A stretch of 43,638 nucleotides of DNA from Parvularculaceae bacterium (GTDB taxonomy: Bacteria > Pseudomonadota > Alphaproteobacteria > Caulobacterales > Parvularculaceae). Under the pieces are notes generated by a model that worked only from the letters and a program-made list of their open reading frames with translations, was not told where the DNA came from and did no database searches. A program made the position numbers and the translations under genes. Below are positions 6,506-20,567 of this stretch, piece by piece. The stretch's first letter is position 1. The number at the start of each line of letters is the position of its first letter. The DNA lies in assembly GCA_021776465.1 (NCBI GenBank), contig JAJFFU010000152.1, positions 1 to 43,638 of the forward strand, given 5' to 3'.

Positions 6506-6816
6506 TTTATCCCCTTCGTTCGCAGTGAGAAAACGCCGCGCCGAAACGGGCTGTGAATCATGAATTCGTGATCGGCTCGCGCCTCGTGCCTGAGCATGAC
6601 CGGCGTTCCTTTCGGAATTGTGCCCTTGAGCGGGAGGTCGAGCGGGATCGTGATCGTCATTCGGCGCGGGTGCACGACCTCAGGCTCGAGGTCAATCGGC
6701 TCGCCGTCGACGATCGAGCAGGTGCACTCGGGCCGGCGGAAGTAGAAAACGCCGGCGACACCGCGGAGCGGGCAGCCCTGACCGTGATCGGCCGGCTGCA
6801 TCTCTTGAGCGTTCAT
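6502..6816 (-). CDS. Hypothetical Cys-containing protein, 104 aa
   Basis: The ATG at 6814-6816 overlaps the preceding stop (ATGA). Cysteines at GCPLRG and ECTCS in the first 35 residues might bind a metal. The rest is a likely small beta domain (MTITIPLDLPLKGTIPKGTPVM) ending in a basic tail. The longer frame to 6978 is a shadow of the upstream gene. Function unknown. Confidence 0.7.
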   Translation of the reverse strand: MNAQEMQPADHGQGCPLRGVAGVFYFRRPECTCSIVDGEPIDLEPEVVHPRRMTITIPLDLPLKGTIPKGTPVMLRHEARADHEFMIHSPFRRGVFSLRTKGIN

Positions 6817-7166
6817 GCAACAGGCTCGCAGGAGGAATCGAGCCGGGGCATTTTGAGAGGCCGACGTCGAAAAATCCACGCCTCGGCGAGCAGCCTGTTC
6901 GGTAGGAACGCGCGGAACTCGCCCCGCGCGCCGAGACACTGCAGCCAGATCAGGAATACGATTCCTGAGGCGGTCCATTCGATCTCATGCGGGTAGAGCT
7001 CGAGACTGTAAGTCCCCTCGAGCGGTGTCGGAAACGCTGAGACCTTGCGCGAGAGATCGAACCCGAGAGGGAGATCAGAACCGACGTCGACCTCGTTGTT
7101 CACTAGCTCGATTTTCCCGACGAAACTCCCGACGTCGCGGCCGTTGAACGTGATCCGGCCGCTCAT
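6813..7166 (-). CDS. Hypothetical protein, 117 aa
   Basis: The start MSGRITFNGRDVGSFVGKI at 7164-7166 overlaps the previous stop (ATGA). The N-terminal half has alternating polar and hydrophobic residues typical of a beta sandwich. The C-terminal third is aromatic and basic (IVFLIWLQCLGARGEFRAFLPNR). No motif recognised. It sits in the middle of a run of genes coupled by 4-base overlaps. Confidence 0.7.
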   Translation of the reverse strand: MSGRITFNGRDVGSFVGKIELVNNEVDVGSDLPLGFDLSRKVSAFPTPLEGTYSLELYPHEIEWTASGIVFLIWLQCLGARGEFRAFLPNRLLAEAWIFRRRPLKMPRLDSSCEPVA

Positions 7167-7447
7167 GAGATGAACCCGCCCGACTTCATGAGCTGCTCGA
7201 TCTGCAGGAGTTCGCGCGCGGCCGGCGGTTTGATCGCGAACAGATTGCCGGCAACCTGCCAGCCGTTGTTCAGCTGCAGCCGGGCGCGCCACATGACGCG
7301 ATCGCCGTTCTTTGGGTCGACGTATGGGAACAGCTCGCCGACGATCCGGGCTTTCGCGTGAACGTCCTGCAGCGTGCAGGCGCCGTAATGGATATAGAAC
7401 GCGCCGGTCTGTTTCGGGTGGTCCGTGAAATGGATTCGCTCGTTCAA
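7163..7447 (-). CDS. Hypothetical protein, TTG start, 94 aa
   Basis: I choose the TTG at 7445-7447 because it forms a TTGA overlap with the stop of the preceding gene, like the ASCH gene in the same run. Sequence after the start: NERIHFTDHPKQTGAFYIHYG. The protein is mixed alpha/beta with aromatic residues, ending ELLQIEQLMKSGGFIS. Function unknown; perhaps a DNA- or RNA-associated accessory protein, but no motif shows this. Confidence 0.65.
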   Translation of the reverse strand: MNERIHFTDHPKQTGAFYIHYGACTLQDVHAKARIVGELFPYVDPKNGDRVMWRARLQLNNGWQVAGNLFAIKPPAARELLQIEQLMKSGGFIS

Positions 7448-8106
7448 GAGTCGGGCGCCTCCATCGCTGAGCCAGCCTTCGAACAGCCCTCGCGGTGCAG
7501 AACGCTGACGGCGCTCCCGCACTCATGACACGGGTCCCAGCCTTTCATGACAGCCTCGACCGCTATGTCGAGGCGAGGCTCGTTTTGCGGTGCGTACTCT
7601 GCCTCGAGCGCGATCGCGTGCTCGCGGTCGAGGCGATCCTGCTCGAGCTCGTGCGCGCGAAACGCCGGCGTCGAGAGACAGATCCCGCACCACGCGATTT
7701 CGTCGATTCTGAGCGGCCAGTTGTCGCGCCCTTCCAATGCCTCGGACGCCGCAGCGGCCTCGTCGTAACTATCGGCGACGACATACGTCACGCCCGGGGG
7801 CCGCTGGCCTGGCTTGTCGTCGTCGGGGTTGTGCGTGTAGCAGCGGTAGAGCTTGCCGCCCTGCTCGAATCTCTCGCGCGGACGATAGGTCCGATCGAAC
7901 TCAGCTCGCGCCGCGGTCTCAGGGTCCTCGGCTGGCTCGCCCATTCGAACCGGCTCGTCGACGATCGCCTCGACGTTGAGGTCGAGCGGGTCCCGGCCGG
8001 CGAGCTTCTTTCGAAGACAGGGAGGGCAGATCGGTAGCCGCTCGTCGAACGAGTCGTGCAGGTGGTGAGCGTCTGAGTCGCACTCGGGGAGATGGCATTT
8101 CGTCAT
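7444..8106 (-). CDS. Cys-rich (zinc-binding type) protein, 220 aa
   Basis: At least three Cys clusters are visible: CHLPEC near residue 4, CPPC near residue 28, and CGIC/CHEC in the C-terminal half with a later Cys (REGC). This implies two zinc-ribbon-like modules around a middle segment (LYRCYTHNPDDD...TYVVADSYDEA). It resembles small phage proteins that mix zinc ribbons with unknown domains. Coupled to both neighbours by ATGA and TTGA overlaps. Function unknown. Confidence 0.75.
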   Translation of the reverse strand: MTKCHLPECDSDAHHLHDSFDERLPICPPCLRKKLAGRDPLDLNVEAIVDEPVRMGEPAEDPETAARAEFDRTYRPRERFEQGGKLYRCYTHNPDDDKPGQRPPGVTYVVADSYDEAAAASEALEGRDNWPLRIDEIAWCGICLSTPAFRAHELEQDRLDREHAIALEAEYAPQNEPRLDIAVEAVMKGWDPCHECGSAVSVLHREGCSKAGSAMEAPDS

Positions 8107-8654
8107 TCGGTGACCTCGCCGCTGTAGTCCGGTGGCTCAGGCACTCCCCGAACCTTGCCCTCGTGCCCGAGGATCTGCCCGATCTTCCGGTTCACGATTT
8201 TCGAGATCAGCTCTCGCCAGCTCAGGAAATGTTCGTCGTCCGGACCTTCGAGGACTGTTCGATTCAGTCGCCCTATATCGACCTCGAGAATGCCGTCGAG
8301 GTAGAGCGCAGCCGTGCAGAAATCACCGCTCGTTCGGAACTTGGTTCGAACTCCCTCGATCGGGGTGACGGGCCCCTGAGGGATAATAGCCGAGCCGGGC
8401 TCGGACGGATCCCCCTGAACCACGCCCTCGCGCTCCATTGCAGCGTATAGCTTGCAGTCCTCGAGGCAGCGGCCGACCTCGACGATCGATTCGTTTCGAT
8501 CGACTTGGCCGGCCATCGCAGCCGCCGAGCTCGCGGCCAGTGCTCCAGCCATGAACGCTCGCCGGCATTCGGTGACCTGCTCGGGACCCGCTTCGGGCGG
8601 CATGACCTCGGCGCGGTACGTCTCATAACACTCGACCATTGAGAGGCGCGTCAT
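8103..8654 (-). CDS. Hypothetical protein, 183 aa
   Basis: Start MTRLSMVECYETYRAEV at 8652-8654, overlapping the stop of the large upstream gene (ATGA). An Ala-rich helical segment (RRAFMAGALAASSAAAMAG) near residues 31-49 could be mistaken for a membrane helix but is flanked by charged residues. The N-terminal region resembles small phage proteins with a CxxxxR...AF..G pattern. The C-terminal part is charged. Function unknown. Confidence 0.7.
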   Translation of the reverse strand: MTRLSMVECYETYRAEVMPPEAGPEQVTECRRAFMAGALAASSAAAMAGQVDRNESIVEVGRCLEDCKLYAAMEREGVVQGDPSEPGSAIIPQGPVTPIEGVRTKFRTSGDFCTAALYLDGILEVDIGRLNRTVLEGPDDEHFLSWRELISKIVNRKIGQILGHEGKVRGVPEPPDYSGEVTE

Positions 8655-11020
8655 CGCTCGAGCCCCGCAAGAATGAACGACGCGTGAACGCTCCAGCCGG
8701 GCGAGTGCTTCGAGTGCTCGGCTTCCTGCTGCCAGAGTTTGCGCTCGAGATCGGCGTCGGTCCGCTTTGCTCCCTCGAGTCCCCAGAGATCGAACAGCTG
8801 CTCGCGGAACCTCTGCTCGCCGGTGAGCTCGAACGCCAGGCCGACGGCCGAGATTGCATTGACTACCTCGGGGCCGCCGTACCAGCTGAGCGCCTTCTCG
8901 TGATTTACCGGCTTCGCGTGCTTCGCAACCGACACGAACGACGGGCTGCCTTTCTTGCCCCACTGATTCACGACGAGCTCGCGCGCCATGAAATCAGCCG
9001 AGGCGACAACGTCCGCGAGCAGCTCGCCGGCGGTCGCGTCGTCGACGGCACCGGAGACCGCGAGAACGAACGTCCCGTTCTTGGCGATCCTCTCCTCGAT
9101 CGCCTGCAGCGCGTCGTGATCGTGGTCGAGCGTTTGTTTCCCGGGCCGGTCCTGCCACGGCTCCGAGCTCCAGTTCTGATTATGCTCGTTGCGCCTCATC
9201 GAGACGCCGTTCGGGAGCGTTGTCAGCTGAGCCCATTCCCCGAGCCCCTGATTCCATGCACCGGAAGCGTTTCGATATTCATCGTTGCCGACGAGCCAAG
9301 CGATCGCCGCGGTGTACAGGGTCCAGCCGGCGCCCCTCGAGAGTTCCCCGCGTCGGTGAGGCTGAGCTCGGTTGCGCTCGAGCTTATCGAGCAGCCCCTC
9401 GCCGCCCTTGACCTCGAGGTCGGGAATCGTGCTCCAGAGATAGCAGGCATTCGAGACCGCTCGCTCGCGGGCCCACGGGTCCGCCATGAGCCAGACGAGT
9501 CGGGCGGGTTCCTTCGCCGCGCGAATGAAATGCTGATCGTCGTGGTGAGTGATCTTCGCGAGTGCGCCGGCGTACGGTGAGCTGCCCTTGTTCCAGGCCG
9601 ACCCGCTGACGTTCTTGAAGTAAGGCACGCCGAACGCGCGATCGCTGCCGGCGATCACTCTGAACGGCTGAGTGCCGGTCGAGTTGGCCCACTCGTGCGG
9701 GGTGATTGGGTGTCCGTCTCTCGGGTGAGAGGCGTGAACGTCTTGGCGCTCGGCCCTCATTTCGGCCTGCAGCCGGGCGAGCCTGAACTCTGGCGATCTC
9801 GTGACCACGCTCCAGGTGAACTCGATCCCCTCGCCGCCGTGAGCCCAGCCGAGCCGGTGCCCGAGCGGCTGAGCCCAGCCCATCGCGTCATGGTGAGCGC
9901 CCCACTTGCCGCCGGCGTTCTTTCCAGTCTCGAGCGCCAGCGTCAGCCCGCGCACCCCTCCCTCAGTTCGAGCCAGCCAGGCGACGATTCCCTTTCTGCC
10001 GCCCTGTTGAAACGAATCCGGGATTTCCCCGATCTGCCTGAGCCCGTGGGGACCCCAGCCGCCGGTGATCGTGAACGCGTGTCCCGCGGTGCTCCAGCCT
10101 TGCCCCTCGCAGTCGAGAATGGAACGAGCCTCTCGAATGCTCGAGCCGGGGTCGAGGGGATAGAGCGCCAGCCGGCGGTGAAACGAGTACTGCGCGGGCA
10201 GAACGTGAAGGCCGCCGCCCTCGAGCTCGTCGACGAGAGTGATCCGGGTCCCGTCCCGCTTGCGCTTCATCGATGAGCGCTGGACCGCGGCCAGGACGCC
10301 GACGCCGCGGCGCGGCACGAGATCGATCGAGTCGAAATAGACCGGGCCCGAGAATGCCGGTGATCCGGGGTCGACGACCGTGTTCGTGATCTCGACCGTC
10401 AGCTCAACGACTGAACTCGTCGACCGCCGGGTCTCGAACACTCGAACGCCGAGCTCGAGCCCCTCGGCGTCGTTGAAGGTTCCCCAATGCCGGCGAATGA
10501 TCTGCCAGCGGCCAGCCTGCAGGCCCTCGGTCCATCTCATCTCAGCATGCAGGTCGCGCAGCCCCTCGCGTTTCATGATGAGATCGAAGCGGCTCGGGAT
10601 TCGTTTCGACGCTCGGGGGAGTCGGCCGATGAATCCGCGGTCGGCTCGCTTGACCTCGAACGGCCCCGGCCCGGTCACCGGGCAGACGAGCTCGACGACG
10701 TCGACGCCTTCTCGCCTGACGACTGGCGTCGTTTGGCATCGGTGCTCGCCGATCTTGAGCACCGGAACAGCCTCGCCCCCGGTCGGGATTGTCGCGCGCA
10801 AGAGATACGGCCGGCGGACTGCCGGCGCCGTCGTCTCGACTCGAGCCCAGAGTTCGCCGCTCAGCTGAGGCTCGGACGCGTAAGAGGCGCAGCACAAGAA
10901 CACGACCGCGACGAGCAGCAGGCTCAGCCAGAATGCCCAAGTCGCGAACAGGCTCACCCCCCTCGGCTGACAGTACGGCTCGCGGTGCACGGGTATCGGT
11001 CTCAGGTTGCGTTCGTTCAC
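8651..11020 (-). CDS. Large membrane-anchored or exported protein, possibly glycan-active, 789 aa
   Basis: Residues 24-47 form a signal-anchor or signal peptide (LFATWAFWLSLLLVAVVFLC). Roughly 350 beta-rich residues follow, with Trp/Gly-rich segments, then a C-terminal half rich in helices and Trp/His motifs (HEWANSTG, NEHNQNWSSEPW, HSPGWSVHASFI). The order of an N-terminal beta barrel and C-terminal helical toroid recalls exo-rhamnogalacturonan-lyase-like (PcRGLX/YetA) enzymes. That is my impression of the fold and not a confirmed match. It leads a run of eight coupled genes. It is not a typical tail fibre: it lies far from the tail genes and carries an export signal. Confidence 0.7.
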   Translation of the reverse strand: MNERNLRPIPVHREPYCQPRGVSLFATWAFWLSLLLVAVVFLCCASYASEPQLSGELWARVETTAPAVRRPYLLRATIPTGGEAVPVLKIGEHRCQTTPVVRREGVDVVELVCPVTGPGPFEVKRADRGFIGRLPRASKRIPSRFDLIMKREGLRDLHAEMRWTEGLQAGRWQIIRRHWGTFNDAEGLELGVRVFETRRSTSSVVELTVEITNTVVDPGSPAFSGPVYFDSIDLVPRRGVGVLAAVQRSSMKRKRDGTRITLVDELEGGGLHVLPAQYSFHRRLALYPLDPGSSIREARSILDCEGQGWSTAGHAFTITGGWGPHGLRQIGEIPDSFQQGGRKGIVAWLARTEGGVRGLTLALETGKNAGGKWGAHHDAMGWAQPLGHRLGWAHGGEGIEFTWSVVTRSPEFRLARLQAEMRAERQDVHASHPRDGHPITPHEWANSTGTQPFRVIAGSDRAFGVPYFKNVSGSAWNKGSSPYAGALAKITHHDDQHFIRAAKEPARLVWLMADPWARERAVSNACYLWSTIPDLEVKGGEGLLDKLERNRAQPHRRGELSRGAGWTLYTAAIAWLVGNDEYRNASGAWNQGLGEWAQLTTLPNGVSMRRNEHNQNWSSEPWQDRPGKQTLDHDHDALQAIEERIAKNGTFVLAVSGAVDDATAGELLADVVASADFMARELVVNQWGKKGSPSFVSVAKHAKPVNHEKALSWYGGPEVVNAISAVGLAFELTGEQRFREQLFDLWGLEGAKRTDADLERKLWQQEAEHSKHSPGWSVHASFILAGLER

Positions 11021-11163
11021 AGGTCCCCCGGTTGTTTGTTGAGCTCGAGAACCACTCCCGAGCAGGCGGGAAGACTAGCGCGGATTGAGATCCGCTGCCG
11101 CAATCTCCTCGAATTTCGGTCTTTTCCTTGAGCTGGGAGCGCCGGAACGACGATCAGAGAGCT
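11021..11163. promoter_or_regulatory. Divergent intergenic region
   Basis: This 143-base gap lies between the divergent 8651-11020 gene (minus) and the small plus-strand gene at 11164, so it should hold promoters in both directions. It contains an operator-like inverted repeat GCGGAT-TGAG-ATCCGC at 11080-11095. I could not pick convincing -35/-10 boxes. Confidence 0.4.
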
Positions 11164-11256
11164 ATGAACAAAACACTCGCAAGCGCAATTCTCCTCGGCT
11201 TCGCTCTCGGGACTGCAGTCACGATCGCCGCCGCGCTGATCATCCTGCCTGCCTGA
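11164..11256 (+). CDS. Very small membrane protein, 30 aa
   Basis: The 30-residue open frame MNKTLASAILLGFALGTAVT... is almost entirely one hydrophobic helix and ends LPA. It has an AGAGAG-type ribosome site just before the ATG. Its length, composition and position in a divergent region fit a phage small membrane protein, but it is too short to be certain. It could be a holin-like peptide; nothing else supports that. Confidence 0.45.
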   Translation: MNKTLASAILLGFALGTAVTIAAALIILPA

Positions 11257-11330
11257 TCAATTCGAGAACCCTCGAGCCTTCCGACCCGATTCGCTCCAGA
11301 CCTGAGCGCCCGACTCTCGATAGAGATCAC

Positions 11331-11612
11331 ATGACCAAACTCAGCAAAATCGCCGGCCTCTCCCGCATCCTCGAAAACCTTCTCGTCGAGCGCGATGAGA
11401 TCCGGACCGGCCTCGGCGAGCGCAGTCTCAACGAAGTCGACGAGGAGCTCGTCGAGGTTCGTGACGATCTCCAGGCTGCCCTGCTCGAGCGGAGTCGCGT
11501 CGAACTGTTCGCCGGGAACAACGAGAAAGCCGTCGACCTGGCGCGTGCTGCCGGCGTCGAGGAGCATCTCGCGAAGACTATGCGCGAGAACCTGGCGCGC
11601 GAGTCGGGCTGA
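11331..11612 (+). CDS. Acidic helical protein, 93 aa
   Basis: Start MTKLSKIAGLSRILENLLVERDEIRTGL. The whole sequence is charged and heptad-like (Leu spacing LNEVDEELVEVRDDLQAALLER), so a coiled coil is likely. It ends just before the large inverted repeat at 11618-11725. Downstream of the 30-residue membrane protein on the same strand. No family recognised. Confidence 0.7.
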   Translation: MTKLSKIAGLSRILENLLVERDEIRTGLGERSLNEVDEELVEVRDDLQAALLERSRVELFAGNNEKAVDLARAAGVEEHLAKTMRENLARESG

Positions 11613-11617
11613 GGAGC

Positions 11618-11725
11618 GTGACGCGGTGACGGAATGACACGATCCCCCGGAACTATTCCTCAGAGCGGTTTTCTGAGAGAGGTTCCGGGGGATCGTGTCA
11701 TTCCGTCATGCTGTCACGTGGTCAC
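11618..11725. repeat. 26-bp perfect inverted repeat flanked by 8-bp-phased TGAC/GTCA motifs
   Basis: Arms 11628-11653 and 11682-11707 are perfect 26-bp complements, with a second 6-bp stem inside the loop (11659-11664 with 11672-11677). TGAC occurs at 11619, 11627 and 11635, and GTCA at 11697, 11705, 11713 and 11721: always 8 bp apart and mirror-symmetric. It lies between convergent genes and overlaps the 3' ends of the two minus-strand frames. There is no U-tract. It may be a bidirectional terminator, or a protein-binding or replication/recombination site. Confidence 0.85.
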
Positions 11726-12985
11726 GGGCCTCGGCCCTTCCGCTTCCGGCGGCCGGGCAGCCTCGCGCCCGACTTCAATAGCAGCGCCGCGATCGCCGTC
11801 GCGAGAACTAGAATCAGAGCGAGGACCTCGAGTCCCCCCGGGTCGTCGATCGTGACCGATGTTCCCTCGGGGCCGATCTCGACCTCGATCGTCTCGTTGA
11901 ATTCCTTCTCGAACTCCTCGGCGTTCAGCTCGTCCGAGGCGCTCTCCGCTGTGGCTTGCATCATTCGCGGAACCTACTAACTCAGTGCCAATTGGGACAG
12001 AATTAGCAGCTGAGGGAGGTCGGTTCACCTTTTTCGAGTCGATCCGAGGGGGTTCCCAGCGCATGACGTCACGCCGCGCGTCCTCGAGCTCGGCGTCGAG
12101 AGCCCCGTCGAACGCCCTGAGCAGCCAGCCCGAGCGGTTTCTGATTCGATCACCGCGCTCGAGCGCGATCGCGAGGAGAGCTGTAGCGCCCTCGAGGCGA
12201 CGCTCGTTCGAGGCGACTAGGAATCCTGGCCGGCCGCGGAGCGTCAAGCCGGCGCTCCTGAGGGCAGCCAGGCGATCGAATATCCCGTGCTGAGACTTCA
12301 CGCTCTCACGCAAGAGCGCCGCAGCCTCTCGAGCCGGTAGCGGGGCAGCCACGGTAGCGGGCTCAGGATCGATCTCGGGGAACAGTTCGAGCTGCCGGTA
12401 GGTCGCCGCGTCGCGCCAGTCTCGGAAGAAACGGCGCCAGCAGGTCGGAGAGAGCTTCGCCTCGGGGTGCCGTCTGAGCATCTTCGCCCCCGGCCCAGCC
12501 CAGAACCGAGCCTCGGCGTCGAGCTCGAGAATATGAATCGTGTCGGCGTAGCGCGGGGGCGGACCGCCGTCGAGGGTCGGCATCCAGTCACCGGGCGAGC
12601 GTTTTATACACAGACTATTCTCGAGCGCCGTGAGGTGAGCTCTGAACCGGCGCTCGCCGATCGGGTCGTGAGGGAAGTGCCTCGAGTAGAGCGTCGCCAG
12701 CCCGCGAGGGCCGTTTCGAGCGACTCCCCCCGGGACGTACCACGGCTGACGCGGTGTCGAGCCAGGCGGACACCGCATCGCCAGCAGCATTAAAAGCATT
12801 CTGGAACGCCGGGCGCGGACGTCACGCCGGCGGGAGTGAGCCTCGACGACGTCGGCCAGGCGCGGAGCTCGGCACGCGAGGACCTCGAGCGGGTCGAGCT
12901 CAGGGTCGAGCCAGGCCTCGCGGCCGAACGGTCGGACCGGGCCCGCCGGCGTCGGCCGCGCCGAGTGTTCGAGTTTGAGCTGCAC
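11714..12985 (-). CDS. Candidate replication initiator (Rep-like), up to 423 aa
   Basis: The open frame begins with GTG at 12983-12985. Its N-terminal 340 residues look protein-like: a region that could hold winged-helix domains (MLLMLLAMRCPPGSTPRQPW..., then LYSRHFPHDPIGERRFRAHLTAL), and a later Arg-rich helical part. The gene starts right beside a cluster of DnaA boxes (13056-13207), the usual place for a Rep gene. The last ~80 codons overlap a better-looking small gene (11722-11964) in another frame, so the true 3' end may be near 12000. The assignment as Rep rests on context, not a diagnostic motif. Confidence 0.5.
   Translation of the reverse strand: MQLKLEHSARPTPAGPVRPFGREAWLDPELDPLEVLACRAPRLADVVEAHSRRRDVRARRSRMLLMLLAMRCPPGSTPRQPWYVPGGVARNGPRGLATLYSRHFPHDPIGERRFRAHLTALENSLCIKRSPGDWMPTLDGGPPPRYADTIHILELDAEARFWAGPGAKMLRRHPEAKLSPTCWRRFFRDWRDAATYRQLELFPEIDPEPATVAAPLPAREAAALLRESVKSQHGIFDRLAALRSAGLTLRGRPGFLVASNERRLEGATALLAIALERGDRIRNRSGWLLRAFDGALDAELEDARRDVMRWEPPRIDSKKVNRPPSAANSVPIGTELVGSANDASHSGERLGRAERRGVREGIQRDDRGRDRPRGNIGHDRRPGGTRGPRSDSSSRDGDRGAAIEVGREAARPPEAEGPRPVTT
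11722..11964 (-). CDS. Small acidic membrane protein, 80 aa
   Basis: MMQATAESASDELNAEEFEKEFNETIEVEIGPEGT... has an acidic N-terminal half, then a membrane helix at about residues 48-66 (VLALILVLATAIAALLL) and a basic tail (RRKRKGRGP). This is a sensible protein with an N-out/C-in topology. It is preceded by a relatively AT-rich spacer (11965-12010) containing the palindrome ccaattgg. It overlaps the open frame of the Rep-like gene entirely. I think this frame is the real one in this stretch. Confidence 0.7.
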   Translation of the reverse strand: MMQATAESASDELNAEEFEKEFNETIEVEIGPEGTSVTIDDPGGLEVLALILVLATAIAALLLKSGARLPGRRKRKGRGP

Positions 12986-13285
12986 GGACTGAGACTAGAG
13001 TCCGAGAGTCCTCGAGGGGAAGCACGAGCACCGCCCCGATCGTCGGCCGCGCGAGTTATCCACAATCGACCCGGATCCCCCGAGCTTGCGGAGCTTTCCG
13101 GATTCTCAGTTCTCTCTTTAAGCCCCCTGGACACTTCGCCGCCAGAACCCGAACACGCCCCGAACCTATCCACAGACAATCCACAAGAGCGGGCCGAGTT
13201 ATCCACAATCGAGAGCGCTCGAAATTTCCCCTCGAAAAATGTCCGCGCGCTCAAGTCCCGCCGGCAGATAGACGAATAGGGGGGT
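12986..13285. other. Candidate replication origin: DnaA-box cluster
   Basis: Two perfect TTATCCACA boxes (13056-13064 and 13199-13207) lie within an 18-bp direct repeat cgagttatccacaatcga (13052-13069, 13195-13212). Two degenerate boxes follow the same orientation: CTATCCACA at 13166-13174 and CAATCCACA at 13177-13185. An AT-richer patch (13220-13241) sits next to the last box. The region separates the divergent Rep-like gene (minus) and the 69-residue gene (plus). Clustered, co-oriented boxes beside a Rep-like gene resemble plasmid or phage-plasmid origins. No other gene is visible here. Confidence 0.65.
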
Positions 13286-13495
13286 ATGAACACTGCAAAC
13301 GAAAACACAACCGCGCTCGAGAACGTCGCCCCCTGCCTCCCCGCTTCGGTCCGCGCCGCCCTCGACGCTCTCGACTCTGATCGTTTCGCGACTCCCGCGC
13401 CCGCCATGCGCCTCACCGGCCAGCGCACTCACGGCGAGAACTACGCTCAGGCCTCCAGCGCCCCCGCTGTTCAGGCTCGCACCGTTCTGCTATAG
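13286..13495 (+). CDS. Small hypothetical protein, 69 aa
   Basis: MNTANENTTALENVAPCLPASVRAALDALDSDRF... with a G-rich ribosome site (AGGGGGG) just before the ATG. A clear rho-independent terminator begins 26 bases after its stop, which supports it as a real, separate transcription unit starting near the DnaA boxes. Ala/Leu-rich helical centre; no family recognised. A regulatory role in replication is possible from its position only. Confidence 0.65.
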   Translation: MNTANENTTALENVAPCLPASVRAALDALDSDRFATPAPAMRLTGQRTHGENYAQASSAPAVQARTVLL

Positions 13496-13520
13496 AGGCC
13501 TCTCCGCTCCCTTCAGAGCT

Positions 13521-13562
13521 GGCCCCGTCGGTGGAAGAGATTCCGCCGGCGGGGCCTTTTTT
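13521..13562 (+). terminator. Rho-independent terminator, plus strand
   Basis: Stem GGCCCCG...CGGGGCC with further G-C and G-U pairs inside (ccgtcggtgg/ccgccggcgg) and loop aagagatt, followed by six T residues (13557-13562). It lies 26 bases after the stop of the 69-residue gene and separates it from the sulfatase. Confidence 0.85.
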
Positions 13563-13569
13563 CGTCCGG

Positions 13570-13624
13570 TCCCGACGGAATCCCGGAAAAAACCCGGTGC
13601 AGTCCCGGTTCCGTCCCGGTCTCC
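13570..13624. repeat. Five tandem 11-bp repeats, core (T/A)CCCG, exactly 11 bp apart
   Basis: Units start at 13570, 13581, 13592, 13603 and 13614: tcccgacggaa, tcccggaaaaa, acccggtgcag, tcccggttccg, tcccggtctcc. The core (t/a)cccg recurs on exactly one helical turn, so a protein could bind it side by side on one face of DNA. The array sits between a terminator and the sulfatase gene. It may be an operator or promoter element for the sulfatase, or an iteron-like site given the nearby DnaA boxes. Confidence 0.75.
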
Positions 13625-13803
13625 CCCTCTCCGAGTTGGGCGAGTGCGGCCGCCTCTCGAGCCGCGTAGGCTCTTGCGCCGGCGAGTCGTGCTGGCTGTC
13701 GCCTCTCCTACTCCACGTGGAACACGCGCAGCGAGAGGCCGGCGAGCGTTCGAATTTCGCCCTCTCCTCTCCTCTCCTCACCCCTGACAATGGAGCCGCA
13801 CTC

Positions 13804-15168
13804 ATGCTCTCTCGATTCCTACTCCCGCTGCTGCTGTTTATCCTCTCAGCGCTCCCCGCCGCCGCTCAGCGTTCCGTTCTCGTGATCCTGATCGACGATA
13901 TCGGCCTCGACACCGTCGGAGCGTTCGCGCCTCACGTGGCCCCCGGGCTGCAGCCAGGCTCGACGCCGAACCTCGACTCGCTCGCCGCCGGCGGCCTCAT
14001 GTTCACGAACGCGATCGTCTCGCCTCTCTGCTCGCCGACTCGAGCCGAGCTCCTCACGGGCCGGTACGGGTTGCGAACGAAAATCGGGGCGATCATCAAC
14101 GAGACGACGATCGCGCTCAGCCTCTCCGAGCTCACGATCCCCGAAATGCTCGACGTCGGTCTCGCTCAGCCGGTCTACGATCACGCGACGTTCGGGAAAT
14201 GGCATCTCGGGAACTCGAGCGTCGGCGGGACGGCGGCCGCTCTCACCGCGGGATTCAATCACCACGACGGATCAGTCGGCAATCACGGCAGCTCGGGCTA
14301 TGTCGACTGGGAAAAGGTGATCGACGGCCGAGTTCTGCCCGAGCACACGTTCTCGACGACCTATCTCACCGATCAGGCGTGCGCCTGGATGAACGAGCGA
14401 GCCGGCGTGCCTTTCTTCGCGCTGCTCTCCTACACCGCGGCGCATACTCCGCTCGAGCGGCCCGAGCCGCCAACGCTCGCGCCGGTCTACGGCGACCTGC
14501 CAGCTGAGAGGCCGCCGGTCGGCGTGTTCGATCGAGACTATTTTCTCGCCATGGTCGAGGCGGTCGACACTGAGCTCGGCCGGCTGATCTCCGAGATCGA
14601 CCCTGAGGTCCTGGCGACGACGATGATCGTGATCCTCGGCGACAACGGCGCCCGAGGAGACTTGCTCTCACCCCCGCTCGATCCGGATCACGGAAAGTCG
14701 ACGCTGTACCAGCTCGGGATTCGAGTTCCCATGATCGTATGGGGCGCCGGCGTCAGGGTCGGAGTCGAGCCGACGCTCGTCGCCGGCGTCGACTTGTACG
14801 CAACGGTCGCAGCGATCGCCGGCGTCGACCTGGCCGCGATCCCCGTCCTCGAGGAGCGGATTCTCGACTCGGTGAACCTGCTGCCGCTGATCGAGGGAAC
14901 GGACCTCAGCCCGCCGCGCGAATGGGTCTACGCCTCGAGGTTCGTGAACGGCGATCCCGAGGATCGGGTCGGCCGGTGCGCGCAAAATATCGAGGGCTGG
15001 AAGGTTCACAAGAACCTCAGCCTGCCTTGGGAGCTGTTCAATCTGAACGACGACCCGCTCGAGGCCGTGAACCTGAAAGACGGCGATATGACTCCCGAGG
15101 AGCAGCTGCAGTTCGACGATCTGAAAGGCAAGATCCTCGCGCTCAGGCGATCCGCTCTCGCGGAGTGA
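13804..15168 (+). CDS. Exported formylglycine-dependent sulfatase, 454 aa
   Basis: A type I sulfatase (alkaline-phosphatase superfamily). Residues 1-21 are a signal peptide (MLSRFLLPLLLFILSALPAAA). The maturation motif C76-S-P-T-R80 is the C-x-P-x-R signature converted to formylglycine by a host enzyme. Metal and catalytic residues look complete: D31/D32 (LILIDDIG), GKWHLG at 131-136, H213 (AAHTP), D279/N280 (GDNG) and K297. It should cleave sulfate esters of sugars outside the cytoplasm. The start is decided by a GGAG site and the signal peptide. It is on the plus strand, unlike most phage genes. A minus-strand terminator lies just after it. Confidence 0.95.
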   Translation: MLSRFLLPLLLFILSALPAAAQRSVLVILIDDIGLDTVGAFAPHVAPGLQPGSTPNLDSLAAGGLMFTNAIVSPLCSPTRAELLTGRYGLRTKIGAIINETTIALSLSELTIPEMLDVGLAQPVYDHATFGKWHLGNSSVGGTAAALTAGFNHHDGSVGNHGSSGYVDWEKVIDGRVLPEHTFSTTYLTDQACAWMNERAGVPFFALLSYTAAHTPLERPEPPTLAPVYGDLPAERPPVGVFDRDYFLAMVEAVDTELGRLISEIDPEVLATTMIVILGDNGARGDLLSPPLDPDHGKSTLYQLGIRVPMIVWGAGVRVGVEPTLVAGVDLYATVAAIAGVDLAAIPVLEERILDSVNLLPLIEGTDLSPPREWVYASRFVNGDPEDRVGRCAQNIEGWKVHKNLSLPWELFNLNDDPLEAVNLKDGDMTPEEQLQFDDLKGKILALRRSALAE

Positions 15169-15171
15169 ACA

Positions 15172-15207
15172 TAAAAAGGCCGGCGCCCGCTTCCATGGAC
15201 GCCGGCC
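15172..15207 (-). terminator. Rho-independent terminator, minus strand
   Basis: An 8-bp stem (15178-15185 ggccggcg with 15200-15207 cgccggcc) is followed, in the minus direction, by five U residues (15173-15177). It ends the minus-strand transcript of the 15228-15776 gene and sits right behind the convergent sulfatase gene; on the plus strand it lacks a T-run. Confidence 0.8.
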
Positions 15208-15227
15208 CCCCCTTGCTACTGCAAAGC

Positions 15228-15776
15228 CTAGCTCGCGGCAGTTGCCGTGCCGTTGAGCCTGACGTCGCAGGAGGTGGTAGCAGCCGCTCGAGCTACTGTG
15301 CTGGCGCCGATCAGGTGATTTCCGGACGAGCTCACCGTGACCTCGCCGGCGCCGTTGTTCCAGTAGAGCAGCTCACCGACCGAGATATCGTCCGCGGCCG
15401 TCTTCGGCAAATTGTGAATCCCGGTCAAGATCAGCACCGCCGGCAATCCCGAGCCGACGGTTGCCTTGACGACTCCGAACAGATCGCCGAGTAGCAAGCC
15501 GTCGCCGCCGGTGAGCGCCGCGCCTGCTGTGAAGTCGAGCTCATAGCCGAGCAGGGATTTCGCCTGCTCGGCGAACAGGAGCAGCAGAGCGGCCTGGAGC
15601 TGAGTCTCGTCGGTGTCGGTGAGCGTGAGGCCCTGAGCCTCGATCACCGTCGCGAGCTCGGTCTGCACCGCGTTCAGCCACTTCGCGCCGACGATCGTCG
15701 AGGCGATGTTCGCGAACGGGTTTCCGTTCTGAAACCGATTCGTCGCCGTTGCGCCCGGGGTGTCGATTCTGTGCAT
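15228..15776 (-). CDS. Tail-fibre-type protein with DUF2190-like C-terminal domain, 182 aa
   Basis: The N-terminus MHRIDTPGA and the following helical segment match the N-terminus of the 422-residue fibre at 23759-25027 (MHRTDAPGN; both continue WxxEL..xIE..G..L...D.TQL.AAL), so it likely attaches to the same part of the tail. The C-terminal half (GVVKATVGSGLP...LPKTAADDISVGELLYWNNGAGEVTVSSSGNHLIG) resembles DUF2190 head/fibre domains. The adjacent minus-strand terminator closes its transcript. The function as a receptor-binding or decoration protein is inferred. Confidence 0.7.
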   Translation of the reverse strand: MHRIDTPGATATNRFQNGNPFANIASTIVGAKWLNAVQTELATVIEAQGLTLTDTDETQLQAALLLLFAEQAKSLLGYELDFTAGAALTGGDGLLLGDLFGVVKATVGSGLPAVLILTGIHNLPKTAADDISVGELLYWNNGAGEVTVSSSGNHLIGASTVARAAATTSCDVRLNGTATAAS

Positions 15777-15807
15777 GCCGAGAGGATCCCAGCCCGAGGC
15801 CCGAAAT

Positions 15808-16299
15808 TCAATCCCGGCGCCGACTCTGCAGATAGAGCTGGCCGACCTTGATCGTCTGCCAGTAGGCCTCGCTCGGCTTGACCCCTGAGTCGCTCTCGAT
15901 CTGTTTGGGGTCGAACTTGGCTTTGATCTGAGCCCTGATCTCGAACGTCAGGAGAGCCCAGCATTCCCCGCAAAATGGGGCATCGGCCGGGACCTTTTCG
16001 GCGCAAGACTTGTTCGCGCACGGGCTGAGGCGGTCTCGCCGGCGCCAGGCGTCAGCCTGAGAGCAGTGCGCGAAATGCGACTCGAGCCTCAGTTCTCCCC
16101 GCTTCTCGAGCGCCGAGTCGTAGTGCAGGGGCATCGCCTTCGATCGGCCGGGCAGCTTCACGAATACGATCCGATCGCCGCACGTGCCGCAGTTGGAAGT
16201 TTCGAAAGGCCGCTCGACTTTGAAGTCGACGCGGCCCCTCGGTGCGCTCTTTGGCTTGCGCTCGATTGGGTCTTCCCCGAATAGGTTCTGCTGGCTCAC
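15808..16299 (-). CDS. Zinc-ribbon protein, GTG start, 163 aa
   Basis: The GTG at 16297-16299 overlaps the preceding stop (GTGA). The protein begins MSQQNLFGEDPIERKP. It contains NCGTCG at about residues 36-41, a central CSQ/CANKSC cluster, and CGEC, probably two zinc sites. The mix of zinc ribbons with basic stretches resembles DNA-binding accessory proteins, but no known family was recognised. Confidence 0.75.
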   Translation of the reverse strand: MSQQNLFGEDPIERKPKSAPRGRVDFKVERPFETSNCGTCGDRIVFVKLPGRSKAMPLHYDSALEKRGELRLESHFAHCSQADAWRRRDRLSPCANKSCAEKVPADAPFCGECWALLTFEIRAQIKAKFDPKQIESDSGVKPSEAYWQTIKVGQLYLQSRRRD

Positions 16300-16775
16300 C
16301 GCTTGAGCATAAGAACCTGACCGGTCCCGAGTAGCTGAGGCTCGAGCTGCTCGGCGATCGTGACCCCGAGTTCGGGAACGACGACGTCGGCCAGAAACTC
16401 TCGCTCGAGCGTTGAGATCCCGATCGCGACGGCCTCGAGCTTTGCGTACACGAGAAGTTTGACCTGGCGCCAGCGCTGACGGTCCGCCTGCTCGAGCGCC
16501 TTGAGCCCGCCGGCATTCGATCGGACCTGACCGCCTGCCGTGTACTTGATTTCGGGGTCGTCGGGATCGGGATAGGGAACGACGAGCCGAACCTGACGAA
16601 CGACTCCCGGCGTCATTTCGCTCTCGATCTTGAACTCGAGAATATGCTGCCGAGAGTCGTCGTCCCAGGCGGACGCGAAGCCGGTCGCGCCGTAGGAGCG
16701 CAGCAGCTTTTCGAGTTCCGCCCGGGTCTTTGTGGTTGTGACCGCTGTTTCACGCGCATAGCGGCCACGGCTCAT
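16296..16775 (-). CDS. Conserved phage protein of unknown function, 159 aa
   Basis: Begins MSRGRYARETAVTTTKTRAELEKLLRSYGATGFASAW. This N-terminus (YARET..VxxxKTRAELE.LL..YGA) and the alternating hydrophobic strand VRLVVPYPD are typical of a conserved phage/prophage protein whose function is unknown. The C-terminal half is helical (LEQADRQRWRQVKLLVYAKLEAV). Coupled to the zinc-ribbon protein by GTGA and 3 bases from the next gene upstream. Confidence 0.8.
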   Translation of the reverse strand: MSRGRYARETAVTTTKTRAELEKLLRSYGATGFASAWDDDSRQHILEFKIESEMTPGVVRQVRLVVPYPDPDDPEIKYTAGGQVRSNAGGLKALEQADRQRWRQVKLLVYAKLEAVAIGISTLEREFLADVVVPELGVTIAEQLEPQLLGTGQVLMLKR

Positions 16776-16778
16776 CGA

Positions 16779-17222
16779 TCAGCCCTCATCGGCGTCACCT
16801 TCGAACGGGAGAGTCGCGGCCGTCTTGCAAACGAGGACGACGTCGGCCTCGAACACTTGGCCGGCATCCATCGCGAGGCGCATGCCAACGAACGCGATCG
16901 TCTTCTCACGATCCTCGAACGCGAACTCGATGCTGCAGGCGATCGACGAGCCGGAACCCTGAGCCCACTTCGCCCCCTTGAGGAAGCAATCAGCCTCGAA
17001 CGCTTCGCCGCCGCCCTCGGGGCCCGGGTCGATCGTGACGCGCATTCGCTCGCCGTTCGTCGCGGTCGCGAACTCCACGAACTCGGAGATCGGATCGCCG
17101 ATCACATCGACCGAGGCCTTGAGAACGCTCTGATCCTTGACCTCTCCGGTGCTGTCGAGTTTCGAGGGTTTCCAGTCGAAGCCCTTAATCAGGAACCGGC
17201 CGCTGTACTTCAATTCGCTCAT
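16779..17222 (-). CDS. Hypothetical protein, 147 aa
   Basis: Start ATG overlaps the ParB-like stop (ATGA at 17219-17222). Mostly beta strands with many aromatic and acidic residues (MSELKYSGRFLIKGFDWKPSKL), ending in an acidic tail. No cysteine motif, signal or membrane segment. The coupling with the ParB-like gene suggests the two are co-expressed and might work together, for example in DNA binding; this is inference. Confidence 0.7.
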   Translation of the reverse strand: MSELKYSGRFLIKGFDWKPSKLDSTGEVKDQSVLKASVDVIGDPISEFVEFATATNGERMRVTIDPGPEGGGEAFEADCFLKGAKWAQGSGSSIACSIEFAFEDREKTIAFVGMRLAMDAGQVFEADVVLVCKTAATLPFEGDADEG

Positions 17223-18892
17223 CGTTTCGCCTTCCGTTTCGCCTTGGTTTTACGAGTCGCCTTTTTCTTGGCGGCCTTCTTGGCCGGCTTCGCAGGCGCC
17301 GCTTTTTTCTTGGGATCCCTGAGCAGCTGCAGCCGCTTCGAAGGCTGCACCGCCTCTTTCGAGAGACGCTCGAGCTCGCGCTCATTGAACCCGAGAATCT
17401 CGTTCCAAACGAACGCGGCCTCGGCGTCCTGCTCTTTTCGAGCGTGAGCGTTCTTTGTGAGCGCCTTACAAATGCGGCCCTTGATCAGAGTCCAGGCGTG
17501 CGCGGAAGCGTCCGAGGCTCGGAACGCTTTTGCTCGAGCAGCGCCGGCGCTGGGAGTCAGATACTCGCCATCGGTCCCGTAGGCACTGACGAGCCTCTCG
17601 ACGATTCCGCGCCTGTGAAATGAGATCGCGTCGGCGATCTGCTGCCGAACGTGATCGATCCGCCAAGCGGCGCGCCGATCTTTGAGCGTTTCCTCGAGGC
17701 GCTTTTTCTCCTGATCCGGTTTTTCCTTCGGAGCGGCCGCGGCGCCCTTGGAACCCTTGGTCGAGGTCGCCGGCGTCGGCTTCGCGGCCTTGCCCTTAGC
17801 GCCCTTCGTTTTGACCCAGATCGTTTTTCCGGTGCGGCCGCCCGACACGACGAGAGCGCGCTGAGCGCCCTTGTCTGATTTCTTGGCCGGCTCCCACTTG
17901 TTGACGTCGAGCACGGACGGGGCGCCCTTGGCCGGCTTCTCGTTCCAGCTGAGCGGCTGCACGAGCGAGGGGGGACTGACGTCGCCGGCGTCTTTCGTGT
18001 GCTTGGCCCTCGAGTGCACGAGGAGCAGGTTCGAGCCGTCCTTTTCCTCAGCAGCCGCGACGACCTGCAGAACGTGAGCCTGACCCTTTTCGTGCCAGCA
18101 TTCGCGATCGAGGCAAACGGCCGAGTCGATCGGGTTCTCGGTTACAACGTCGTCGAACAGCCCGGGCGCGTTGCATGAGTTCTTAGTGCATCCGACGCAG
18201 GCGCCCGCCTTGGCGACGAGAGTCGCGTCCTCGAGATCCCACGGCGCCAGTGTGAGCCGGCCGGTGTACTCCCTCAGGTGAGCGGCGAACTCGGTCGGGT
18301 TCGGGGGCCCGTCCCAGTAGCCCTGCACGATTTCGAGCTGTTGATCGCCGGTCAGCGTCGCCAGGCCCTCGAGGAGAGCAACCGGCCAGCGCTCGATTTC
18401 GTGCTTGCCCTTGAGCGAGCCGTCGAGAATCTTCGGGTGCAGCGAGAGCAGGTTCGAGCGCCTCGAGACATAGCTCACGGCGCGGCCGAGTTGGGCTGCG
18501 AGATCGGTGATCGCCGCGGCGCGATCGCCGCCGAGCTTCTCGAGCAGCTCGGAAAGCATGCCGGCCTCATCGAGAGGCGTCAGGTCTTCCCGCTGGATCT
18601 GCTCGACGAGGTTCACGATCCTCGCCTCGTTGTCGTCCATCGAATCGCGGACGGTTGCGGGGACCTCTTTCAGACCGAGCTCGCGCGCGGCCAAGAGGCG
18701 CCGGTTTCCGATCACGGCCTCGTATTCGAATTTCCCGCTCGGCTTCTTCCGGAGTAGGAGCGGCTGCAGGATCCCCTGAGCTCGGATCGATTCTCGGAGG
18801 TCCTCGAGGTTGCGCGGTGCGCTCTTGCGGGGGTTGAGGCTCTTTGCGAGCGGACGGATTTTCGCCGTCGAGATCATCTTCGGTTCGGTCAT
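17219..18892 (-). CDS. ParB-like protein with Cys module and very basic tail, 557 aa
   Basis: Residues 5-110 are a ParB/Spo0J N-terminal domain (LNPRKSAPRNLEDLRESI, ILQPLLLRKKPSG, EAVIGNRRLLAARELGL, LVEQIQREDLTPLDEA). Residues 125-160 look like a helix-turn-helix (DLAAQLGRAVSYVSRRSNLL). Then comes a Cys module (CVGCTKNSC ... CLDRECWHEK) of the kind seen in plasmid/phage ParB-like proteins. The C-terminus is Lys/Ala-rich and ends in a histone-like basic tail. No ParA was seen in the window. It could be a partition-type or regulatory DNA-binding protein. ATG at 18890-18892. Confidence 0.85.
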   Translation of the reverse strand: MTEPKMISTAKIRPLAKSLNPRKSAPRNLEDLRESIRAQGILQPLLLRKKPSGKFEYEAVIGNRRLLAARELGLKEVPATVRDSMDDNEARIVNLVEQIQREDLTPLDEAGMLSELLEKLGGDRAAAITDLAAQLGRAVSYVSRRSNLLSLHPKILDGSLKGKHEIERWPVALLEGLATLTGDQQLEIVQGYWDGPPNPTEFAAHLREYTGRLTLAPWDLEDATLVAKAGACVGCTKNSCNAPGLFDDVVTENPIDSAVCLDRECWHEKGQAHVLQVVAAAEEKDGSNLLLVHSRAKHTKDAGDVSPPSLVQPLSWNEKPAKGAPSVLDVNKWEPAKKSDKGAQRALVVSGGRTGKTIWVKTKGAKGKAAKPTPATSTKGSKGAAAAPKEKPDQEKKRLEETLKDRRAAWRIDHVRQQIADAISFHRRGIVERLVSAYGTDGEYLTPSAGAARAKAFRASDASAHAWTLIKGRICKALTKNAHARKEQDAEAAFVWNEILGFNERELERLSKEAVQPSKRLQLLRDPKKKAAPAKPAKKAAKKKATRKTKAKRKAKR

Positions 18893-18947
18893 TGTTGCCC
18901 TAGCTTTCGTTCGGTCAGTGAGGAGAGTTCACGCGCTCTCGGATCGG

Positions 18948-19238
18948 TCAGCCGGTACTTCGCTCGTCGACGGCTTCCTTGAAACCCTTCCCGGCTCGGA
19001 ACCCGACCCGGTAGCCCTCGGCGATCTCGGCGTCGACGCCGCTCGAGAATGGAGAGCTGATCTTGCGTCCCTTGCGACGGCGCCGTTCGAAGGTGCCGAA
19101 ATTCGAGATCGTGCAGGATCCATCTTGCACGGTTCCCCGAATGATCGAGCCGACGACGCTCCGAACGAGTCGGTCGGCGTGTTGTTCGCTGACCTCCATG
19201 TCGGAAGCCACCATTTTCGCGAGGCCTGAGCGGTTCAT
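18948..19238 (-). CDS. HU/IHF-family DNA-binding protein, 96 aa
   Basis: Short, basic and one domain: MNRSGLAKMVASDMEVSEQHADRLVRSVVGSIIRGTVQDG, then ISNFGTFERRRRKGRK and GVDAEIAEG..VGFRAGKGFKEAV. These match the HU/IHF layout: N-terminal helices, the FGTF turn, and the GYRVGFRAGK beta-arm end. HU proteins bend DNA and can help replication, packaging or transcription. Located just before the ParB-like gene and after two hairpins upstream. Confidence 0.9.
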   Translation of the reverse strand: MNRSGLAKMVASDMEVSEQHADRLVRSVVGSIIRGTVQDGSCTISNFGTFERRRRKGRKISSPFSSGVDAEIAEGYRVGFRAGKGFKEAVDERSTG

Positions 19239-19344
19239 GGGCCCGAGCGTATCCGAAAATCCCCGATGGTTTGCGCCTTTTTCCCGGGGCGGGGTAGTGT
19301 TTTGAGCTGGGGACGCGGCCCCGGCAGAGCGAGCTCGCCATTGT

Positions 19345-19478
19345 CAGCCCCGCTCGGATCCTGAATCCCGTTCGGGGCTGCTTGATTCTCCTCGGAGGTT
19401 TGAAGACGCCTCTGTTTCTCAGAGTTCGTGAGGGCCGCCAACCGCAGAGCGGCCAGCCCTTCCCGGGGCTGGCCGCTC
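19345..19478. other. Two hairpins between 19239 and 19503
   Basis: This gene-free gap of 265 bases holds an 8-bp stem (19345-19352/19373-19380) and a perfect 13-bp stem (19447-19459/19466-19478) followed on the plus strand by gtttctattt. In the minus direction the second hairpin lies just after the 19504-19836 stop and could end that transcript, though it has no U-run on that strand. The promoter for the HU-ParB genes should lie in 19239-19446. Confidence 0.5.
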
Positions 19479-19503
19479 GTTTCTATTTGAGACCGCTCGA
19501 GCG

Positions 19504-19836
19504 CTAGGTGCCGGGGTCGCTCAGGCGATCGGAGAGCCCAAGCCACGCCGCCGAACGAACGTCAGCGATCGCACCGTTCAGATTTTGCGCGAGCAACATC
19601 CCGCCCGCGGCTCGGATCTGTTTCATTCGCGTCGCGAGAGCGTCTCGCTGCAGCGTGAGACTCTCCTCGGGTACGCCGGCGAGCGTCTGGATATAGAGCG
19701 CCGAGGCGGCCTCAGCAGCCAGCTCAGCACGCTCGAGCAGCGGAAGCGCGAACTGATCCGAGCTCGCTTTGAGACGGTTCGTGAGGTTCTTTTTGATCGT
19801 TCCCGCGAACCCCTCGATCACTTCCTCGAGATTCAT
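19504..19836 (-). CDS. Hypothetical helical protein, 110 aa
   Basis: Overlaps the stop of the lipoprotein gene (ATGA at 19833-19836). Ala/Leu-rich, with amphipathic helices and a possible coiled coil (LEEVIEGFAGTIKKNLTNRLKASS). No signal, no catalytic motif. The pairing with a small lipoprotein suggests an envelope-related unit, perhaps a lysis or spanin-like pair, but no family evidence is visible. Confidence 0.65.
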   Translation of the reverse strand: MNLEEVIEGFAGTIKKNLTNRLKASSDQFALPLLERAELAAEAASALYIQTLAGVPEESLTLQRDALATRMKQIRAAGGMLLAQNLNGAIADVRSAAWLGLSDRLSDPGT

Positions 19837-20114
19837 TCTGAGTCTCCCTCAGCCGGCAGCGGGGGATAGATGGCCTCGCCGACCTGAATCATGAAATCCC
19901 AGTCGGCGACCGCTTCGATCAGGGAGGCCCGGCCGAGCGGGTCGTTCACGAGTGCGGGGTCGGCCTCGACGTAAGCGATGAACCTCGGACCGATCAGGTC
20001 GTGAGTCGCTCGAGAGGCCTCGACCCAATCGCGCGCGGGTTGCGGGACGGTGACGCAGGCGGTCAGGGAGAGAGCCAGCAGGAGCGGAGTCATGAGTCGT
20101 GTCAAAATCTGCAT
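19833..20114 (-). CDS. Small lipoprotein, 93 aa
   Basis: MQILTRLMTPLLLALSLTACVTVP has a clean lipobox L-T-A-C with Cys20, typical of a lipoprotein that would be anchored after export. The rest is about 70 residues of soluble helical sequence. Small lipoproteins next to tail genes in phages can be Rz1-like outer spanins, but the sequence has none of the usual Pro-rich stretch. Coupled to the next gene by ATGA. Confidence 0.8.
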   Translation of the reverse strand: MQILTRLMTPLLLALSLTACVTVPQPARDWVEASRATHDLIGPRFIAYVEADPALVNDPLGRASLIEAVADWDFMIQVGEAIYPPLPAEGDSE

Positions 20115-20157
20115 AGTTGTTGCCCGTGTAAGGGTTTAGGGGTGACAGTCTCGGCGA

Positions 20158-20550
20158 TCACGCGATCGCGACTGTCGGGATTTCAAGCGAGAAGTCGAGC
20201 GGCTGAGGGCAGATCACGCTGTCGCCCGATACGTTTCGCTCGACGGTCATGAGCAGGACCCTCGAGCGGAATTTCTGAGTGCCGTTCGAGAACTGAACGA
20301 GGCCCTGCAGCTTCCACTGGCCGGCCGCGTCAATGTCCCCGCCGACCGTCGTGTACCTGAGCAGGCCGTCGGCGCCGTCCGTCACGAGAGTCGCCTCGCG
20401 GGTGAACGTTGTCCCGTTCGGCCTGGCGAAGATGATCGCGAGGCGCGCGGTCTCGCCGATGTTCACGACCTCGCCGGCGGGGTCGATGATCCTCAGCACG
20501 ATCTCGGTCCCGGTGTCGAACAGCTGCAGAACTTTGCTCAGGAATGCCAT
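20158..20550 (-). CDS. Tail-associated protein with C-terminal PLDF motif, 130 aa
   Basis: MAFLSKVLQLFDTGTEIVLRIIDPAGEVVNIGETARLAIIFARPNG... looks like an immunoglobulin-like or baseplate beta domain. The C-terminus PQPLDFSLEIPTVAIA is the same motif found three times in the neighbouring 743-residue protein and at the end of the gp48-like protein. It lies 17 bases downstream of the 743-residue gene. Probably a structural partner; exact role unknown. Confidence 0.75.
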   Translation of the reverse strand: MAFLSKVLQLFDTGTEIVLRIIDPAGEVVNIGETARLAIIFARPNGTTFTREATLVTDGADGLLRYTTVGGDIDAAGQWKLQGLVQFSNGTQKFRSRVLLMTVERNVSGDSVICPQPLDFSLEIPTVAIA

Positions 20551-20567
20551 ATCGGGCGCTAAGGGGG

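Follow-up and report, generated by a model that had tools for sequence, protein, structure and literature searches.

A contractile-tailed phage carries a complete sulfatase gene, and its product falls into one well-supported branch with ten other sulfatases from viral contigs, most of them unlike this phage, and three from bacterial genomes. By the sulfatase tree, phages that share its tail module have gained such genes more than once or swapped them. The original prediction covered none of this, neither the relatives nor the branch that unites them nor the repeated gain.

The sulfatase

The window is the whole stretch of DNA that was analysed, 43,638 nucleotides in length. Its sulfatase gene is the following.

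13804..15168, plus strand: sulfatase gene, 454 aa, ATG start, signal-peptide-like N-terminus, motif C76-S-P-T-R80

The same frame can also be read longer, from 13717 or 13531, and a GGAG lies close upstream of the ATG at 13804. We call the 454-aa protein P0001. Its residues 25-341 match PF00884 over profile positions 3-301 of 301 (E 5.7e-31, 108.4 bits with a cut-off of 25), which is far above chance. The active-site set consists of D31, D32, C76-S-P-T-R80, G131-K-W-H-L-G, H214, D280, N281 and K298. We take D31, D32, K132, H134, H214, D280, N281 and K298 to be the metal and sulfate-site residues. Across the 59 sequences of alignment A5 there are eight invariant positions (D31, R80, K132, H134, H214, D280, N281 and K298), and D32 and C76 are almost invariant. 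A complete sulfatase had been predicted, and that is what the full-length profile match and the presence of every expected active-site residue show. The predicted residue numbers are right for D31/D32, C76-S-P-T-R80 and GKWHLG, while H213, D279/N280 and K297 should all be raised by one.

The structure agrees with the sequence. An AlphaFold2 model made from 59 aligned sequences, for which 58 of the 101 usable relatives of P0001 were taken, has a pLDDT of 92.8 and a pTM of 0.92. Foldseek places it closest to two carrageenan sulfatases of family S1_19 and related ones, PsS1_19B (6psm; E 2.0e-30, TM 0.76) and i-CgsB (6bia), and to human arylsulfatase A (1n2k). Normalised by query length, the TM scores are 0.74-0.76, and identity is 24-25%. 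These S1 sulfatases share with P0001 the fold, CxPxR, the metal-site Asp/Asn, GKWHLG, the His and the Lys. P0001 differs from them in being phage-borne, and it stands apart from all but three of the sampled bacterial sulfatases. The fold matches of the model support the enzyme class, not a substrate. No NCBIfam equivalog reaches its curated cut-off against P0001 (TIGR03417 scores 58.2 of 433.45 bits, NF010322 55.9 of 481, NF045661 46.9 of 900). By the whole profile, the C/S-x-P-x-R motif, the site residues and the fold, P0001 is an S1 sulfatase (PF00884).

The N-terminus, MLSRFLLPLLLFILSALPAAA-QR, is strongly hydrophobic with an AxA-like end. It is probably an export signal, in line with the signal peptide that had been predicted. 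The family-profile search found no attachment domain in P0001.

The phage genome around the gene

The features that matter for the argument are these.

24..43638, no strand: phage contig; the first 15 bases of the window are the same as the last 15 (1-15 and 43624-43638)
41035..42981, minus strand: terminase large subunit, by profile matches
37000..40823, minus strand: portal and protease-major-head genes, by profile matches
23308..23748, minus strand: small gene of the distal-tail module, with homologues directly before the sulfatases of two relatives, L207 and L169
20568..22799, minus strand: repeat-rich gene, tail-fibre-like by its place, with homologues near the sulfatases of relatives
15228..15776, minus strand: convergent neighbour gene, tail-fibre-type N-terminus and head-decoration-type C-terminus
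15178..15207, minus strand: hairpin just past the sulfatase stop, followed on the minus strand by TTTTT
13521..13556, plus strand: terminator-like hairpin upstream of the sulfatase, 16-pair stem and T6
13286..13495, plus strand: small ORF of 69 aa that precedes the terminator-like hairpin
13056..13207, plus strand: DnaA-box-like cluster, possible replication origin
11714..12985, minus strand: replication-initiator-like gene (a guess from its place), kept in relative G446 at 45%

The identity of the two ends suggests a closed genome, though the repeat is short. Recognised phage genes include a GpA-type terminase, a lambda-type portal, a protease-head protein, a contractile sheath, a tape measure, Mu-type gp45 and gp48, baseplate J and a ParB-like gene. 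The set of terminase, portal, sheath, tape measure, gp45/gp48 and baseplate J marks this as a contractile-tailed phage. No integrase was recognised among the window proteins scanned, which are a subset of all. The ParB-like gene lies at 17219-18892 on the minus strand, and no ParA was recognised among the scanned proteins. There is an inverted repeat at 11617-11718 with 37-base arms that are 89% complementary and 28 bases apart. A 768-aa protein (8651-10957, minus strand) has an N-terminal membrane or signal helix. It has no match in Pfam, PHROGs, NCBIfam, the PDB or cultured phages; its model, made without an alignment, is poor (pLDDT 37) and has a strand-then-helix pattern.

Phage genes flank the sulfatase gene on both sides. 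The description of a plus-strand gene in a mostly minus-strand phage holds, with 53 of the 58 gene calls on the minus strand. Among the 5 plus-strand calls at least one is doubtful, 7495-8037, which overlaps a minus-strand gene. The sulfatase therefore runs against most genes, and it has terminator-like hairpins on both sides. The upstream hairpin at 13521-13556 is terminator-like and may close a short plus-strand unit; it is notable for its long stem alone, because 4 terminator-like sites were found in 6 kb where 3.7 are expected. The downstream hairpin at 15178-15207 probably ends the leftward operon. Its fold z is -4.5 for the plus strand, and the terminator pattern scan missed it. No sigma-70-type promoter for the sulfatase was found in the promoter scan, and the 69-aa ORF has no PHROG match.

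The placement beside a replication region is plausible. DnaA-box-like sites at 12604-13207 (two exact, two with one mismatch) speak for it and possibly mark the phage origin; in the control, 5 of 100 window shuffles had as many over their whole length. The product of the gene at 11714-12985 matches nothing in Pfam or PHROG.

The product of the convergent gene at 15228-15776 matches PHROG tail-fibre families over residues 1-76 to 1-163, and also phrog_122 (head decoration) and PF09956. It is the one gene for which "fibre" is more than a label taken from gene place. The sole PHROG match of the 20568-22799 product is a family without known function. This protein has many repeats of about 21 residues resembling GGGGSLPALTGAGVLEQRHEL, and the DNA repeats are spaced by 63 bases or multiples of it.

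The contig, its bin and maturation

The sulfatase gene is even in composition with the rest of the phage. Tetranucleotides in the stretch 10001-20000, which holds it, correlate with the whole window (a reference that includes the stretch itself) at r 0.975, and the other stretches give 0.933-0.976. Its GC3 is 0.826, and seven phage genes range over 0.757-0.827. There is no sign of a chimera, and host contamination is rejected on composition as well. With phage genes on both sides, this bears out the prediction of a true phage genome.

The bin that holds the contig is another matter. The window has 64.1% GC, and 17 of the 20 sampled bin stretches have 55-60% (the other three have 40-52%). The tetranucleotide correlation between the window and the bin mean is 0.548. 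For comparison, there are 14 longer bin stretches, and all but two of them correlate with the rest of the bin at r 0.955-0.984; the two exceptions reach 0.34-0.37. The composition of the window is foreign to the bin, so the bin is probably not the phage's host. Two more contigs of the same bin (genome G000), C70 (L387) and C170 (L392), are foreign too, with GC of 45% and 40% and r of 0.34 and 0.37, which means the bin is mixed. Tetranucleotides did not point clearly to any host; the best genome stretch was that of Poly30 (r 0.808).

This matters for maturation. The original prediction pointed to a formylglycine-generating enzyme (FGE) of the host. The cysteine motif that such an enzyme would act on is kept at C76. 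The host side does not fare as well. The bin is 83% complete, and in it the window gene is the sole PF00884 match. It has one PF03781 protein in all, which we take to be EgtB-like, and it has no match to TIGR03942, so a search of this 83% complete bin gives no convincing FGE or anSME. Within the bin's family, 29 of 62 genomes have sulfatases. A PF03781 match stronger than 1e-64 occurs in 12 genomes, every one of which also has a match to P0001. This implies that true FGEs accompany sulfatases in the family. The bin has no PF03781 match of that strength. Since there is no convincing FGE in a bin that is itself foreign to the phage, we do not assign maturation to any particular host.

Relatives and the sulfatase tree

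No relatives turned up when IMG/VR was scanned for exact peptides of P0001, of the major head protein or of the 768-aa protein. A scan with alignment A1 (P0001 and nine bacterial sulfatases) found 25 loci, among them L164, L165, L166, L167, L169, L170 and L179. A second scan with alignment A3 found 18 loci, among them L207, L208 and L209; A3 was built from branch members, so the placement of these three in the branch is partly by selection. The phage setting of L164, L167, L169, L170 and L208 is given by PHROG matches of their neighbours, and that of L179 (which is G446) and L207 by homology with the window. L166 was judged by its near-identity to L167 and its gene layout. L165 and L209 are viral by IMG/VR classing, and L165 also has a homologue of window 20568-22799 adjoining. 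We excluded L168 on account of its bacterial-looking neighbours. L170 and L179 are two mutually dissimilar phages from one sample (IMG/VR 3300032144), which also holds a sulfatase-free relative, L044.

Cultured phages add little to this. Searches with tblastn using four sulfatases against cultured-phage records hit 20, 11, 2 and 11 records, and all matches listed are below 60% identity. Those listed are mostly unverified faecal contigs, bacterial-looking Salmonella records and Acinetobacter phage MD-2021a bins. They include two Campylobacter phages with partial matches and one record, H7, that is unannotated.

A first tree held 71 of 83 sulfatases after near-copies and fragments were dropped. 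A second held 74 rows: 42 of 80 genome matches (the 14 best and 28 random ones) and 32 others. The bacterial rows come from the best 80 of more than 596 matches. In the 74-row tree P0001 forms a 14-row branch (support 100/97) with ten viral-contig and three bacterial sulfatases, namely L159 (genome G376), L216 (a planctomycete bin) and L238 (Poly30). Within it is an inner branch of 8 rows that holds viral contigs only (99/97). It should be kept in mind that L166 and L167 are near-copies and that L209 and L179 sit on long branches. The rows nearest P0001 are bacterial, L159 and L216 (98/82), and by this position P0001 may have been acquired from bacteria independently. L216 has S-S-T-T-R where P0001 has C-S-P-T-R. 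The Poly30 locus (L238, 8504-11236) encodes a 910-aa Planctomycetes bacterium protein with two tandem sulfatase domains. In the first tree, most of the viral-contig sulfatases (19 of 29) lie not in this branch but among bacterial ones.

The argument for repeated gain comes from phages that share the window's tail module. G446 (41,452 bp, closed by a 127-bp end overlap) shares 25 of the 49 window proteins. L207, for which 11.5 kb of a 26.9-kb record were used, shares 11 of them, and both counts include the sulfatase. G447 shares 19 of 49 and has no PF00884 match. The sulfatase tree pairs G446 with L169 and L207 with L208. A clade of P0001, G446 and L207, a group picked after the tree was inspected, is rejected in a 23-row tree (p-AU 0.00044, likelihood loss 57.8). 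Phages of this tail type have therefore gained the gene more than once or swapped it.

In the window, G446, L207, L165 and L169, distal-tail genes adjoin the sulfatase or sit within three genes of it. In G446 a tail-fibre-like gene and two small genes come before the sulfatase. The L207 sulfatase is preceded directly by a homologue of window 23308-23748, and the L169 sulfatase follows a weak homologue of the same gene. In L165 and L169 the sulfatase is followed by a homologue of window 20568-22799, and in G446 such a homologue lies nearby. L207 and L208 have related genes behind the sulfatase, the start of the L207 one matching its L208 counterpart at 48.6% identity over 74 aa. Elsewhere the settings vary: between portal and head genes in L164, before terminase-like genes in L166 and L167, and near a DNA polymerase in L170. 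Hydrophobic starts like that of P0001 are found in L165, L166, L167 and L170. The G446 and L169 sulfatases begin directly with the first strand of the fold, apparently without a signal peptide, so export is no rule of the branch.

How common and how new

The original prediction called sulfatases rare as phage genes, and among phages related to this one they are. PF00884 was found in 1 of 50 baseplate-J records, and that one is the record of L207, which was itself in the query alignment. The 50 were taken from 80 kept of 393 matches; many are fragments, and G446 is outside the 80. None of the 14 terminase relatives has PF00884, after 18 other positives were excluded because they had been chosen beforehand for a sulfatase. 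With 49 of 50 baseplate-J and 14 of 14 terminase relatives lacking it, the sulfatase is dispensable in the phage lineage. BFVD gave 8 significant fold matches for P0001, all of them giant viruses of eukaryotes by name, with no phage protein among them. These sulfatases (Yasminevirus, Satyrvirus and Tetraselmis virus 1) have the same fold as P0001, but they reach at most 17-18% identity and their hosts are eukaryotes.

PHROG 19870 matches P0001 over residues 25-428 (E 5.9e-29), yet it is annotated as unknown function, not as a sulfatase. It matches all 9 viral relatives scanned (L166 was outside the scan), L209 only weakly at 1.8e-4. The bacterial L216 matches it too (8.5e-32), so the family is not phage-specific.

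Viral sulfatases have been annotated in print. The passages seen in PMC11077953 and PMC10029852 place sulfatases on viral or prophage contigs, as in the window; the former counts 13 on potential prophage regions, and the latter labels its viral sulfatase as thiosulfate oxidation. These passages offer counts or a mention, without a branch, a position or repeated gain. An FGE is described in a passage on Pseudoalteromonas phages (PMC10232697). That is also a phage gene of the sulfatase pathway, but it is the maturing enzyme, and by PF03781 all ten sulfatase-bearing records related to the window are without one. An entry in a review table gives changed sulfatase activity on VHML lysogeny in Vibrio harveyi (PMC6359870), a hint that lysogeny can alter this activity. 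Our searches of the open-licence PubMed Central literature brought up no study devoted to phage-borne sulfatases or to their branch. Going by the passages cited, phage FGEs and viral sulfatases are known as annotations, and the branch and its repeated gain are new here.

What the enzyme may do

We argue that P0001 is probably accessory cargo of a contractile-tailed phage, an exported enzyme that desulfates glycans on or around the host surface. A host enzyme would convert C76 to formylglycine in the cytoplasm. The protein, judging by its N-terminus, would then leave by the Sec route and cut sulfate esters from host-envelope glycans or from the surrounding polysaccharide. The benefit might be a way through a sulfated coat, the release of progeny or an altered receptor on cells already infected. 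Because relatives often adjoin distal-tail genes, we favour a benefit in the encounter with the host surface over one in feeding, with moderate and somewhat lesser confidence. One can imagine a wider scenario in which compact sulfatases form a common pool among phages, move with distal-tail genes and are swapped among unrelated phages for host-surface desulfation. They would then parallel capsule depolymerases, with the charge of the glycan as their target in place of its backbone. This we offer tentatively, as a doubtful extension.

It is also conceivable that P0001 is an ordinary auxiliary metabolic gene, a bacterial sulfatase that helps an infected or lysogenic host gain sulfate or sugars. 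The bacterial rows nearest P0001, the sulfatases in 29 of the 62 family genomes and the 13 in potential prophage regions (PMC11077953, in the passage seen) all fit this. However, no other polysaccharide-use gene was recognised among the window proteins scanned, and the relatives sit in structural modules rather than beside catabolic genes. We consider this reading rather unlikely.

Alternatively, the sulfatase could be bound to the virion and act in adsorption as a tail enzyme, like a capsule depolymerase. The adjoining distal-tail genes of several relatives make sense under such an arrangement, and so do G446 and L169 with no apparent signal peptide. Signal peptides are unusual for virion proteins, though, and P0001 has a signal-peptide-like N-terminus. 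Its strand is opposite to that of the structural genes and it has no attachment domain, so a virion enzyme is improbable in this phage. We give an equally low probability to a hydrolase of another ester (phosphate or phosphonate), or to an enzyme that is inactive because it stays unmatured in the true host. The sulfatase superfamily is promiscuous, L164 also matches PF01663, and the bin has no convincing FGE or anSME. Against another ester, P0001 keeps CxPxR, both metal Asp, the Asp-Asn pair, the His and the Lys, and its nearest solved folds are sulfatases. A bacterial sulfatase misassembled into a phage contig would explain why the contig sits in a bacterial bin of different composition, but it is very improbable, since the gene and its flanks match the phage in tetranucleotides, in GC and in GC by codon position, it is flanked by phage genes and its relatives occur on other phage contigs.

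If the branch is real and its members are active, then phages own a tool against sulfated coats that is undescribed as such in the literature we found. PHROG 19870, a family of unknown function, would get a likely one. Whether sulfation shields bacteria from phages would then become directly testable, and so would the effect of phages on the turnover of sulfated glycans.
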